NCBI GenBank assembly: GCA_022841905.1
Contig: JALHQO010000007.1
Span: forward strand, 124,001 to 188,000
Source of the DNA: Hyphomonadaceae bacterium
GTDB lineage: Bacteria; Pseudomonadota; Alphaproteobacteria; Caulobacterales; Aquidulcibacteraceae
DNA: 64,000 bases
Direction of reading: 5' to 3'
The number at the start of each line of letters is the position of its first letter. Position 1 is the stretch's first letter. Made by a program: the position numbers and the translations under genes. This document shows, in pieces, positions 1 through 59,520 of this stretch. The notes beneath the pieces are model-generated. The model was given only the letters and a program-made list of their open reading frames with translations. It was not told where the DNA came from and did not search any database.

Positions 1-1202
1 GCGGCGGCGTGCGTGAGACGTTGCGCATTCTTTCCCAGCACGCGCCCATCGTTCAGCACGAAGTCCCGACCGGTACGCCGGTTCTGGATTGGACCGTGCC
101 GAAGGAGTGGGTGATCCGCGATGCGTGGATCAAGAACGCCGCCGGCGAGCGCGTCGTCGATTTTCAGAAGCACAATCTCCATGTGCTCAATTATTCAACG
201 CCGATCCGCGCGACGCTGCCGCTTGCGGAGCTGAAGAAGAATATCTTCACGCTGCCGGAGCAGCCCGATCTCATCCCGTACCGCACCTCGTACTACAACG
301 AGCGCTGGGGCTTCTGCATGGCACAGCGCTCGCTCGATGCGTTGCCGGACGGCGAGTACGAGGTTTGCGTCGATTCAGATTTGAAGGATGGTTCGCTGAC
401 CTATGGCGAGTTCGTTCATCGCGGCGCCTCGGAGGAGGAGGTGCTGTTGTCCGTGCACACCTGCCACCCGTCGCTCGCCAACGACAATTGCTCCGGCATG
501 GCCTTGTTGGCGTTGCTGGCTGGCCGCATGGCCGGCCTCAAGACGCGCTACACCTACCGCTTCCTGTTTGCGCCCGGCACGATCGGCGCGATCACTTGGC
601 TCGCGCTGAGCGGCGACGCTGCCAAGCGCATCAAACATGGGCTGGTCATGTCCTGCGTCGGCGATCGCGGCGGCTTTACCTACAAGCGCACGAAGCGCGG
701 CAACGCGCGCATCGATCGCGTGATGTCGCGCGTGCTCCGGGGGCGAGACGCGAACGTCATCGATTTTTTCCCGTACGGCTACGACGAGCGGCAATACAAT
801 TCGCCAGGCTTCGATCTGGATGTCGGGCTATTTCAACGCACGCAGTTCGCGACGTTTCCCGAGTATCACACGAGCGGCGACAATCTGGATTTCATCGACG
901 CTGCATCATTGGCGGAAAGCTATCGCGTCGTCGTCGCCGTGATTGAAGCGCTGGAGACCGAGCGCCGCTATCTCAACACTTCCCCCCACGGCGAGCCGCA
1001 GCTCGGCCGGCGCGGGCTCTATGCGGCGATCGGCGGGGATAAGGATAGTTACGCCAAGAGCATGGCAATGCTCTGGGTGCTGAACCTGTCCGATGGCGAT
1101 CACTCGCTTCAAGATATTGCTGACCGCGCCGGGGCAGAGTTGGCGGTGATCGAAGAGACGGCGCTCTTGCTGGAGCGAGCCGGGCTGCTGAAAGCGCTCT
1201 GA
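1..1202 (+). CDS. DUF4910 aminopeptidase-like protein (5' end outside window)
   Basis: The frame is open at the left edge and the first possible start (GTG at 9) lies inside a conserved block (GGVRETLR), so the true start is upstream. The protein matches the DUF4910 family: an M28-like aminopeptidase fold with candidate metal ligands in HTCHPS and NDNCSG (about residues 150-163 of the visible part) and EYHTSGDN (about 287), followed by a C-terminal winged-helix-like domain. Family members commonly sit in O-antigen or capsule clusters; the substrate is unknown. It converges on an RmlC-type epimerase gene and probably belongs to the same modified-sugar locus. The family call is firm; peptidase activity is inference. 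Confidence 0.85.
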   Translation, partial: GGVRETLRILSQHAPIVQHEVPTGTPVLDWTVPKEWVIRDAWIKNAAGERVVDFQKHNLHVLNYSTPIRATLPLAELKKNIFTLPEQPDLIPYRTSYYNERWGFCMAQRSLDALPDGEYEVCVDSDLKDGSLTYGEFVHRGASEEEVLLSVHTCHPSLANDNCSGMALLALLAGRMAGLKTRYTYRFLFAPGTIGAITWLALSGDAAKRIKHGLVMSCVGDRGGFTYKRTKRGNARIDRVMSRVLRGRDANVIDFFPYGYDERQYNSPGFDLDVGLFQRTQFATFPEYHTSGDNLDFIDAASLAESYRVVVAVIEALETERRYLNTSPHGEPQLGRRGLYAAIGGDKDSYAKSMAMLWVLNLSDGDHSLQDIADRAGAELAVIEETALLLERAGLLKAL

Positions 1203-1298
1203 TATGGAGCGCGGGCGTCCTCGCCCGCATCGGCAGTCGGCAAGTGACGATACCGTCGATGTCAGCCGACCTGCGGGCGAGGACGCCCGCGCTCCATA
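1203..1298. repeat. REPIN-like twin-hairpin inverted repeat
   Basis: Two perfect 27-bp inverted arms (1203-1229 and 1272-1298) flank a 42-bp spacer. Each arm contains its own hairpin (GCGGGCG, loop TCCT, CGCCCGC) after the head TATGGAGC. The element fills the gap between two convergent stop codons (TGA 1200-1202 and, on the other strand, TAA 1304-1302), so it could also act as a two-way terminator. A second, diverged copy with the same architecture lies at 58684-58746. The structure is read directly; the REPIN (paired REP) assignment is by architecture only. Confidence 0.75.
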
Positions 1299-1301
1299 AG
1301 A

Positions 1302-1832
1302 TTACCCAGCGAAATCCGGCCAAGCTCTATCTTTGTCGCTTATCTCGCTAACCGGCAGCGGCCACTCGATCGCGAACGCCGAATCGTCCCAGCGCACGCC
1401 GGCAGCGGCGTCCGGGGCATAAAATTCCGAGATCAGATAGCCGATCTGGCAATCGTCTTTGAGGGTTTGGAAACCGTGGGCGAAGCCCTTGGGGATGTAG
1501 AGCTGGCGCATGTTTTCAGCGCTGAGTTCGAAGCCTTGCCAGCGGCGGTAAGTCGGCGAGTCCGGATTCAGATCGATGATCACGTCCCAAATCGCGCCCT
1601 TCAGGCAGCGCACCAGCTTCACCTCGGCGTGCGGCGCGCGCTGAAAATGCATGCCGCGCAGTGTGCCGCGCTGGACGTTTTGGGACGTCGAGTGCTGCGG
1701 AAAGCGCGTCTCGAGACCATGCGCGCCGAACTCGCGTTCGCAGAAAGTCCGCGCGAACCAGCCGCGCGTATCACGCGCGGGTTCAGGTTCGACCAGCCAG
1801 GCCCCTGCGAGGTCGGTTTTGGTAAAAATCAT
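1302..1832 (-). CDS. rfbC: dTDP-4-dehydrorhamnose 3,5-epimerase family (RmlC-type cupin)
   Basis: This 176-residue protein has the normal RmlC length. The catalytic His lies in RGMHFQ (about residue 61), followed by the cupin block YIPKGFAHGFQTL (about 113-125) and YAPDAAAGVRWDD near the C terminus. RmlC enzymes epimerise C3 and/or C5 of NDP-4-keto-6-deoxy sugars in the cytoplasm. RmlA, RmlB and RmlD are not in the window, and the nearby nucleotidyltransferase looks cytidylyltransferase-like, so the substrate could be a CDP- rather than a dTDP-sugar. The gene is divergent from the oxygenase at 1943 and convergent with the DUF4910 gene. Confidence 0.9.
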   Translation of the reverse strand: MIFTKTDLAGAWLVEPEPARDTRGWFARTFCEREFGAHGLETRFPQHSTSQNVQRGTLRGMHFQRAPHAEVKLVRCLKGAIWDVIIDLNPDSPTYRRWQGFELSAENMRQLYIPKGFAHGFQTLKDDCQIGYLISEFYAPDAAAGVRWDDSAFAIEWPLPVSEISDKDRAWPDFAG

Positions 1833-33537: not shown

Positions 33538-33867
33538 CTAGTGCCGGCGGTCCCAGCGGTTCTCGCGGCGGTCCCAGCGATTTTCACGCCGGTCCAGCAC
33601 GTCCTCACGGGCATCGCGCACATCTTCGCGCGCATCGAAGACGTCTTCACGCTGATCGCGCCAGCCGCCTTGGTACTGCGCATCGCGAACGTCCTCGCGC
33701 ACATCGCGCACATCTTCACGCCGGTCGAAGCGGTTCTCACGGCGATCAAGCCGGTTTTCGGCGCGGTCAAAGCGATTTTCGATCCGATCCCAATTCTGCG
33801 CGTACGCCGACGGCGCGGCAAACGCGGTAAACGCCACGACGGCGCACAAGGCTAAAGTCCGTTTCAT
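33538..33867 (-). CDS. secreted charged heptad-repeat protein
   Basis: The ATG at 33867, preceded by GAGGAG, gives 109 residues. A signal peptide (cleavage after AYA, about residue 24) is followed by about ten degenerate seven-residue units of the type DRRENRW, DRREDVR and DAREDVL, interrupted once by an AQYQGGW segment. The mature protein is about three-quarters Arg, Asp, Glu and Asn, and should form a highly charged helix. Similar repeat proteins occur in related bacteria but I know no function. It converges on phoB; stress or phosphate linkage is only positional. Confidence 0.8.
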   Translation of the reverse strand: MKRTLALCAVVAFTAFAAPSAYAQNWDRIENRFDRAENRLDRRENRFDRREDVRDVREDVRDAQYQGGWRDQREDVFDAREDVRDAREDVLDRRENRWDRRENRWDRRH

Positions 33868-58074: not shown

Positions 58075-58683
58075 ATGATCCGTCGCTCAATCCTCGCCAG
58101 CTTCCTCCTGCTCGTCGCCGCTGCGTGCTCGCCGCCGGCGCCGGCGACCGCGCAACCTCAGACGCCGCCGACTGGCGCGGTGGAGGAGGCGATTTTCGCT
58201 GGCGGGTGCTTTTGGTGCATGGAGCACGACATGGGCGCGATCCCGGGCGTGATGTCGGTTGAGAGCGGCTATACCGGCGGGCGCAACGAGAACCCGACCT
58301 ACGAGAACCATCCGGGCCACTTCGAGGCCGTGCGTGTGCGCTACGATTCAGGCCGCATCGGCTATCGCCAATTGCTCGATCGCTATTGGCCGCTGGTCGA
58401 TCCGACCGATGACGGCGGCCAATTCTGCGACCGAGGCTCCAGCTATCGCACCGCGATTTTCGTGACCGCCGCGCAGCGCGCCGAAGCCGAAGCCAGCAAG
58501 CGCGCTATCATTGCGTCCGGGCGCGTGAACGGCCGCGTCCTGACGCCGGTACTCGATGCGGCGACGTTCTGGCCGGCGGAAGAGTATCACCGCAACTATG
58601 CCCGACGAAATCCCGCGCACTACGCCGCCTACCGCGCCGGATGCGGACGCGATCGGGTGCTACGTCAGGTTTGGCGGCGTTGA
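58075..58683 (+). CDS. msrA: exported peptide-methionine (S)-S-oxide reductase MsrA
   Basis: 202 residues. A lipobox (VAAAC, about residue 18) and a Pro/Ala-rich linker precede the MsrA domain with the catalytic GGCFWCMEHD (about 43-52), GYTGG and the HFEAVRVRYD block. It reduces Met-S-sulfoxide. Being divergent from msrB with a shared 92-bp promoter region, the pair forms a periplasmic Met-sulfoxide repair module. The stop TGA directly abuts the REPIN-like repeat. Confidence 0.93.
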   Translation: MIRRSILASFLLLVAAACSPPAPATAQPQTPPTGAVEEAIFAGGCFWCMEHDMGAIPGVMSVESGYTGGRNENPTYENHPGHFEAVRVRYDSGRIGYRQLLDRYWPLVDPTDDGGQFCDRGSSYRTAIFVTAAQRAEAEASKRAIIASGRVNGRVLTPVLDAATFWPAEEYHRNYARRNPAHYAAYRAGCGRDRVLRQVWRR

Positions 58684-58746
58684 TATGGACCGCCGGCGTC
58701 TCGCCGGCCAGCACATACGCATGCCGGCGAGACGCCGACGGTCCAT
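58684..58746. repeat. REPIN-like twin-hairpin inverted repeat, second copy
   Basis: Arms 58685-58708 and 58723-58746 (24 bp) are complementary except at one position, with a 14-bp spacer. Each arm holds a hairpin (GCCGGCG, loop TCT, CGCCGGC on the left). Compared with the copy at 1203-1298, the head differs in one base and the stem carries G-to-C changes on both sides, so pairing is kept. It starts immediately after the msrA stop codon and ends 9 bp before the TrcR stop. Confidence 0.75.
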
Positions 58747-58755
58747 GAAGAGCGA

Positions 58756-59385
58756 CTAGCCTTCGTCAGCTTGCTCGTACGTCTCGGCCGGCACGGTCTC
58801 CTGTGCGCCTTTGAGCGTCTTGGACTCTTCTTTGGCCTTGCGGGCGTCGGTGCGGGCTTTGGCGGCGGCGGCGTCGGCGACGACGGCGTCGAGTTCGATC
58901 TGGGTGCACAGGCCGATCGTCACCGGATCGACCGGCTTGATCTGCGGTGAATTCCAGTGCGTGCGGTTGCGCACCTGTTCGATGGTCGACTTGGTCGTGC
59001 CGATCAGTTTCACGATCTTGGAATCCGGTACTTCCGGGTGGTTCTTCAAGAACCAGTTGATGGCGTCTGGGCGATCTTGGCGGCGCGCGATCGGCGTGTA
59101 GCGGGCGCCCTTCTTTTTCACTTGCGGCAGGTCGATGCGCTTCTGCTCGAGCGGCTTCAGCACGTAGGTTTCATCGGCCTCGCCCTTGGCGATCTCTTCG
59201 CGCGACAGAAAGCCCCCAGCGATGGGATCGACGCCGCGAATGCCCTTGGCGACATCTTCGTTGGCGATGCCTTGAACTTCCAGCGGATGCAGGCCGGTGA
59301 AATCGGCGATCTGCTTGAAGGCGAGCGAGGTGTTTTCGATCAGCCACACGGCGGTGGCCTTCGGCATGAGGACGTTCGAGGTCAT
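58756..59385 (-). CDS. TrcR-type cell-cycle transcriptional regulator (DUF1013)
   Basis: 209 residues from ATG 59385. The DUF1013 blocks are clear: PKATAVWLIENTSLAFKQIA, GIRGVDPIAGGFLSREEI, RRQDRPDAINWFLKNHPEV, and a helix-turn-helix-like KIVKLIGTTKSTIEQVRNRTH. The C-terminal tail is Ala/Lys/Glu-rich. The family is restricted to alphaproteobacteria and has been named TrcR. It converges with msrA through the repeat element; the symporter gene lies upstream. Confidence 0.92.
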   Translation of the reverse strand: MTSNVLMPKATAVWLIENTSLAFKQIADFTGLHPLEVQGIANEDVAKGIRGVDPIAGGFLSREEIAKGEADETYVLKPLEQKRIDLPQVKKKGARYTPIARRQDRPDAINWFLKNHPEVPDSKIVKLIGTTKSTIEQVRNRTHWNSPQIKPVDPVTIGLCTQIELDAVVADAAAAKARTDARKAKEESKTLKGAQETVPAETYEQADEG

Positions 59386-59520
59386 GTGCTTAGGCTCCAG
59401 ATACGCAAACGCGCCCGGCGGCGTCGCCAGGCGCGGGGCCAGATGGAGCAACGGGCTGACGACCACGGGCGCGGTAAATCAGTTGCCCGCGATATAGCGC
59501 TGGTTGTGGGCGAAGGGAAG

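Follow-up and report, generated by a model that had tools for sequence, protein, structure and literature searches.

What is the perfectly palindromic sequence that lies between two converging genes near the start of this stretch of DNA, and how did it arrive there? The window, i.e., the whole stretch of 64,000 nucleotides that was analysed, corresponds to C7:124001–188000 of a 3.56-Mb Hyphomonadaceae genome (G000, hereafter the own genome; 27 contigs, 99.4% complete). An earlier note, made from the letters of the window, described positions 1203–1298 as a REPIN-like element in which both arms of a perfect 27-bp inverted repeat are hairpins themselves, and pointed to a second copy at 58684–58746. 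The analysis described below makes it very probable that both elements are REPINs, non-autonomous mobile elements whose spread through a genome depends on a RAYT (TnpA-REP, an HUH/Y1 endonuclease) acting in trans.

Two doublets in the window and their copies in the genome

The element at 1203–1298 (REPIN 1) comprises two REP units. Unit 1 (1203–1228, plus strand) starts with a TATG+GA+GC head, followed by a GCGGGCG stem, a TCCT loop, and a CGCCCGC stem; unit 2 (1273–1298, minus strand) is the same sequence inverted, with its head outward, and each unit scores 43.1 bits with the covariance model introduced below. The arms (1203–1229 and 1272–1298) are 27 nt long, 100% complementary, and have 42 nt between them, the outermost base on each side of the spacer (1229–1272) being also a part of the arms; they make the first of the 26 inverted repeats of the window. 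Folded as single-stranded DNA, the whole of REPIN 1 reaches −49.9 kcal/mol (z −12.1, none of 200 shuffles as good), and the arm 1203–1229 by itself forms the 7-bp hairpin and leaves an 8-nt head unpaired (z −3.4, 0/200). The inverted-repeat listing and the folding thus bear out the hairpin-within-arm structure proposed initially.

REPIN 2 is built from a unit at 58684–58708 (plus strand; TATGGACC GCCGGCG TCT CGCCGGC; 34.5 bits) and a unit at 58723–58747 (minus strand, head outward; CATGGACC GTCGGCG TCT CGCCGGC; 28.3 bits). Its arms, 58685–58708 and 58723–58746 (24 nt, 96% complementary), are the second of the 26 inverted repeats, and it folds as single-stranded DNA with −33.6 kcal/mol (z −8.9, 0/200; z −3.2 and 1/200 for its arm). 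The architecture is as the earlier note had it, and so is the replacement of G by C on one side of the stem and of C by G on the other; the end of the element has to be moved to 58747. In addition, the right head reads CATGGA, the loops are TCT, and the outer palindrome contains one mismatch. A 26-nt unit pattern with up to three mismatches has two matches in the window, both in REPIN 1, where 0.01 are expected; it misses REPIN 2 because of the 3-nt loops of the latter.

Both elements are docked to the ends of converging genes. On the left of REPIN 1 is the gene for a DUF4910/DUF2172/HTH_47 protein (9–1202, plus strand), whose TGA codon (1200–1202) abuts the head, and on the right is the gene for dTDP-4-dehydrorhamnose 3,5-epimerase (1302–1832, minus strand) with its stop 3 nt away. 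REPIN 2 directly follows the stop of a peptide methionine sulfoxide reductase gene (58075–58683, plus strand), and the stop of the gene for a TrcR family protein (58756–59466, minus strand) lies 8 nt from its other end. An Rfam search of the window gave no match above the gathering scores, i.e., no known structured RNA. Elsewhere in the window, at 33545–33752, imperfect direct repeats recur about every 21 nt.

The earlier note proposed counting copies genome-wide and testing for their paired, inverted occurrence, and the own genome does contain copies arranged in this way. A consensus search with up to three mismatches gave 28 units, 14 per strand, versus one match for the reversed control pattern. 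A covariance model built from 30 unit variants found at least 50 hairpin units at E ≤ 1, a lower bound because only 150 of the 12,943 first-look candidates were scored. As many as 42 of the 50 make 21 neighbouring pairs within 200 bp, and all 21 are inverted with the heads outward, so that, as in REPINs, two inverted REP hairpins form one long hairpin, in folding as well as in the arrangement of the close pairs. The elements are mostly 63–76 or 94–104 bp in size. Twelve of the 50 units have E above 0.05 (eight in pairs, four single), and three of the 21 pairs consist of such weak units alone; three of the four weak single units, which are sited inside called genes, are probably false. The family is multi-copy and mainly extragenic, with 15 of 20 own REPINs outside the genes called by a home-made caller. 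The outcome that would have spoken against the REPIN reading, two copies alone and none in sister genomes, did not occur, since matches are present in all 30 genomes of the genus.

Two REPINs inside reading frames deserve a separate mention. In locus L022 (G000:C13:28805–31830), a REPIN at 1501–1580 lies in frame within a reading frame of more than 1000 codons, which presumably encodes a hydantoinase/oxoprolinase-like protein, and adds to it the stretch SGPPAPSPA...AGEGAGGPD; the flanks match locus L335 of the sister genome G001, whose element contains a run of N. In L008 (G000:C13:11013–14038), a REPIN is found inside a reading frame that we take to be AMP-ligase-like, close to a stretch of N that is preceded and followed by the same piece, the duplication being probably a scaffolding artefact.

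Covariation of the stems, which had been claimed from the two window copies, was followed in 48 distinct variants gathered from the REPIN loci collected at that point, and it is borne out. Four of the seven stem pairs are changed on both sides (columns 10–25, 11–24, 13–22, and 15–20). Paired cells make up 94.9%, a figure to be read with the gathering scan in mind, which holds most stem bases constant and thereby biases the sample towards pairing and conceals variation; on each of five measures, all 500 shuffles fall short, and slid controls never exceed the structure. A first run on 30 chosen variants of the 48 gave 96.2% paired cells, with 0/500 shuffles on four measures and 1/500 on the fifth.

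Related units and RAYT genes in sister genomes

All 30 genomes of the genus, the own one included, have matches at up to two mismatches, from one unit in G002 to 190 in G011; reversed controls give 0 or 1 per genome, so that genomes with one or two units are indistinguishable from chance. Outside the genus, a match was found in 8 of 31 genomes, with at most four units. At least 117 stretches of public contigs carry a unit, and the titles among the matches listed are mostly Hyphomonadaceae, also Terricaulis and others. The occurrence in metagenome-assembled genomes (MAGs) beyond the genus is read from record titles. The richest of them is a Vicinamibacteraceae-titled MAG (G062; L266, L316) with 1107 units in 3.4 Mb, some as arrays, and with a RAYT that exceeds the family cut-off, is 47% identical to the RAYTs of the genus, and has the same REP on both sides. 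A Sumerlaeota-titled MAG has 83 units and a RAYT over the cut-off, but without an adjoining REP of the window type; a Hyphomicrobiales-titled MAG has 89 units and no RAYT at E ≤ 1e-5; four further MAGs hold 1–13 units. A Prevotella MAG seems likely to be misbinned.

A RAYT-type (Y1 transposase) gene, which the earlier note proposed to look for, was not found in the own genome (99.4% complete) with PF01797 at E ≤ 1 or with profile A1 at E ≤ 10. Profile A1, made of eight sister RAYT proteins, does detect RAYTs in sister genomes and matches E. coli TnpA-REP (PDB 4er8) with E 1.4e-9. E. coli genomes with REPINs yet without a RAYT have been described (PMC8049555). PF01797 reveals Y1 transposases in many sister genomes; members of the RAYT profile occur in 16 of the 30 genomes of the genus, G009 and G026 having distant relatives only. 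The proteins of L061, L073, L084, and L085 score 83.5–95.5 bits, over the curated NCBIfam NF047646 cut-off of 80 bits.

It is in the sister genomes that the proposed linkage of the family to RAYTs becomes visible, with RAYT genes sitting between inverted copies. Three of the four genes over the cut-off (L061, L073, and L084) are bracketed by the window-type REP with the heads outward, and the RAYTs of L063, L065, L099, L109, and L113 likewise lie between inverted window-type REPs; those of L112, L066, and L086 have doublets alongside. There are exceptions: the flanking units of L075 are on the same strand, L087 has a unit on one side only, and L071 is at a contig end. At several loci, the RAYT reading frame ends within the REP, which supplies its last codons (AGEGAGGP, AGEDAGGP). 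In G001, a REP-RAYT-REP cassette sits in DNA whose syntenic counterpart in the own genome is 91–93% identical and has neither the cassette nor a repeat; this could equally reflect a gain in G001 or a loss in the own lineage.

Copy number goes with the presence of a cognate transposase. The median is 92 units in the 11 genomes with a RAYT flanked by the window-type REP versus 8 in the other 19 (p 1.2e-4), and the difference holds for genomes that are at least 90% complete (7 versus 13 genomes, p 1.3e-3); these tests ignore kinship, and the RAYT-flanked labels were assigned by hand. In E. coli, RAYT presence has likewise been linked to REPIN number (PMC8049555). Deviations exist in both directions: many units occur without a RAYT in G020 (58), G028 (57, in a 57% complete genome), and G017 (34), and G010 has a cognate RAYT, yet only 5 units.

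Empty sites and the origin of the elements

REPIN 1 is absent from G001, where the flanks are 89–94% identical and, as the alignment reads, the stop codons of the converging genes overlap. In G010 and G011, the ends of the same neighbours adjoin without an element; other sequence is present in G019 and G022, and in G003 a REPIN also follows the left gene, here represented by a more distant homologue (~56% identical). The simpler reading of this comparison would be an insertion of REPIN 1 in the own lineage. Between GCGCT and TTA, the insert has a net length of ~103 bp, made up of the 96-bp REPIN plus a few bases at either end; the empty site, a single case, would allow insertion 3′ of a CT dinucleotide. 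The REPIN 2 junction is bare in G004 and G029, is occupied by other REPINs in G003 and G022 and by a lone unit in G005, and has a different neighbour in many of the 30 genomes. At least 7 of 29 own sites are common to the G001 REPIN loci fetched, as judged by flank alignment. At L012/L341 (G001:C18:5447–7472), a CTTGGACC REPIN of G001 immediately follows 11 nt that remain of a TATGGAGC REPIN. Together, the filled/empty pair at REPIN 1 and this overlay suggest past movement, as far as alignments can tell. At the G001 counterpart of the REPIN 2 junction (L194 14720–15378, G001:C33), there are ~660 bp of other DNA resembling a small two-gene module, by eye perhaps a toxin–antitoxin one.

If it works like E. 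coli TnpA-REP and IS608, a RAYT would bind the REP hairpin together with the foot tetranucleotide on single-stranded DNA, would cut near the hairpin, and would carry the doublet to a new place, the single-strand step being borrowed from the same systems. Since the own genome has no RAYT, movement there today is unsupported; its lineage would once have had a RAYT, and its copies would now be immobile. The sites behind converging stops may be those where insertion is least harmful, or those where the enzyme prefers to land.

The same sites could be taken for the work of the host, which might have made a bidirectional terminator or a stabiliser of mRNA 3′ ends for converging genes and kept it for that role. 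Indeed, converging genes surround both window copies, their stops being 0, 3, 0, and 8 nt away, and the hairpins are very stable. The home-made gene caller, which uses a codon score, places 10 of the 20 own REPINs and 12 of the 21 of G020 between converging genes, whereas 10 of the 58 adjacent gene pairs of the window converge; when 22 of 29 sites were picked by hand as strong and five inside a gene were set aside, 9 of 17 were converging (Fisher p 0.005). However, a terminator scan found none around REPIN 1, the same junction does without the element in G001, G010, and G011, and copies also occur between tandem genes and within reading frames (L008 and L022; by the caller, 5 of 20 own REPINs and 1 of 21 in G020 are inside genes). 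Nor would a terminator role explain the RAYT flanks and copy numbers that range from 1 to 190. A host-made device is improbable, and an intrinsic terminator as the origin is rejected on the empty terminator scan around REPIN 1 and the empty junctions; a secondary role acquired after insertion may exist.

Another kind of mobile element, either a MITE mobilised by some other transposase or a transposase-less REP of the CGTC type, has a still smaller probability, and we consider it very improbable. It would fit a genome that lacks a RAYT, as the own one does, and CGTC REPs are reported to be the predominant type in alphaproteobacteria and to be transposase-less (PMC3733652); they share with the window family the host class, head-to-head dimers, and short loops. 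But the terminal unpaired CGTC is absent from REPIN 1, REPIN 2, and the listed own REPIN heads, the window family is associated with RAYTs, as CGTC families reportedly are not (PMC3733652), the window-type REP brackets RAYT genes with outward heads in several sister genomes, and the REP type tracks the RAYT tree. As for a chance palindrome or an assembly artefact, one could invoke the 27-contig assembly and the N-gap with a duplicated piece in L008, but this is hardly credible given 0.01 window matches expected, matches in 30/30 genomes of the genus, and reversed controls of 0 or 1 per genome; the genus-wide matches, the 50 own units, and the window expectation rule it out. That the family is moved by RAYTs is thus the most likely reading. 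The window element itself is an ordinary family member and probably a relic. What the earlier note said of REP/REPIN membership stands, with the qualifications that the head is not the canonical GTAG/GTGG, that the own genome has no RAYT in the profile searches, and that movement is read from the comparison of genomes.

Heads, RAYT lineages, and stop codons

The element belongs to a known kind. REPINs of Pseudomonas fluorescens SBW25, as described in PMC3116915, are also inverted REPs with a spacer that form a long hairpin, with doublets as the rule and a link to RAYTs, and are comparable in size (71 and 110 bp between first residues there); the present family differs in its TATG, TCTG, or CTTG heads followed by GA and in that its own genome lacks a RAYT. 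GTAG-1 and GTAG-2 REPs, in the account of PMC3733652, share with it an unpaired tetranucleotide and a dinucleotide (GW there, GA here), a GC-rich stem with a short loop, head-to-head dimers, stems with compensatory changes, locations between genes in converging or tandem orientation, and RAYT genes with flanking REPs that may overlap the 3′ end of the gene. Unlike in these families, where GW follows the tetranucleotide GTAG, the tetranucleotide here is not GTAG, and an extra unpaired SC dinucleotide precedes the 7-bp stem. A search of the literature, mostly outside subscription sources, gave nothing relevant beyond the REP/RAYT papers cited here. It is the head variant and the docking at stop codons that are worth specialist attention.

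The REP heads are of the TATG, TCTG, and CTTG types followed by GA. The canonical REP foot is GTAG or GTGG (PMC6006769), and none of the listed own REPIN heads has it, which places them outside the GTAG super-family as defined. We infer that the first four head bases (TATG in REPIN 1) are the guide homologous to GTAG/GTGG. Around the RAYT genes, a flank scan requiring GGA found 111 hairpins versus 3 in mononucleotide shuffles; without this requirement, GGA was present in 79 of 206 hairpins, the next most frequent triplet being CGC with 31. Heads differ among RAYT clades. The clade of L060, L062, L067, L069, L070, L074, and L085 has GTTG+GA in 22 of 40 heads, as well as three GTGG and one GTAG; a clade with the window-type REP has CTTG+GA at 5 of 5 RAYTs, one of them with ATTG on the other side; other RAYTs with the window-type REP have TATG, TCTG, CCCG, or ACTG heads before GA. 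On the RAYT tree, stem type requires 3 changes against a shuffled mean of 10.5 (0/300 as low; 30 of 31 rows labelled) and head type 4 against 7.1 (0/300 as low; 13 of 31 rows labelled, L063 being left out because of different heads on its two sides). The tree omits 14 of 45 RAYT-like proteins as fragments or distant relatives, includes L075 cut at 195 residues, and has L316/L317 on a weakly supported branch.

The proteins resemble class 2 TnpA-REP (PMC6006769; PDB 4er8) in the Y---NP signature, here Y[IV]ExNP, and in the HUH motif, present as NHVH or THVH; they differ in that their REPs lack GT[AG]G and in several residues. Five residues read GTAG in the E. coli protein according to PMC6006769. 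In eight aligned sister RAYTs, W94 and R104 are unchanged. The position of Q95 is taken by R, Q, or A, that of E100 by D, and that of H101 by R; the replacements of E100 and H101 have also been reported in some GT[AG]G-reading subclasses (PMC6006769), so the Q95 position alone speaks for a changed reading. The choice of REP and target by RAYTs has been dissected in vitro for few enzymes (three in PMC8266576); for one of them, changes in the guide shift the cut dinucleotide, and attempts with the two others are reported to have failed.

Docking at stop codons is strong. A gene stop is within 0–4 nt of the element end at 10 of 20 own REPINs and 15 of 21 in G020, a gene start at 0 and 1, respectively. 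In 32 of 76 pairs, one end or both ends lie directly against a stop triplet, whereas outward-shifted positions give 4.25 such pairs on average and 11 at most; the five tandem-array pairs of L079 had been dropped from a total of 81. AA precedes the head at 44 of 104 ends of the GGACC class and at 6 of 42 of the GGAGC class; in the former, it helps to make TAA, and in the latter, 15 of 42 ends stand behind a stop triplet though AA is rare. It is possible, though we hold it only tentatively and think it rather doubtful, that a RAYT lineage of the genus, with a relative in the Vicinamibacteraceae-titled MAG, abandoned the GT[AG]G guide in favour of clade-specific heads before GA; provided that the choice of the cut site still depends on the head, a switch of heads would retarget the element, and docking at stop codons would reflect target choice and not selection alone. 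A genus with 30 genomes, several clades of RAYTs with REP types to match, RAYT-plus and RAYT-minus species, and 1–190 copies would make head evolution, co-evolution, and decay once a RAYT is lost testable.

A second REP family (GGASC GCGGGTC TTCA GACCCGC) is represented in the own genome by 21 units outside the window. It has members in 23 of the 30 genomes of the genus and flanks the RAYT L072 in G006. Its copy number was considered as a test of RAYT specificity, and the prediction failed: G006, with an intact flanked RAYT, has 16 units and is not above genomes in which no such RAYT was found (G019 and G022, 26 each); 3 units are present in G012, where a stop interrupts the flanked RAYT on C159. 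Homogeneity alone fits a link to the RAYT, with 13 of 16 units exact in G006, as compared among the matches listed.
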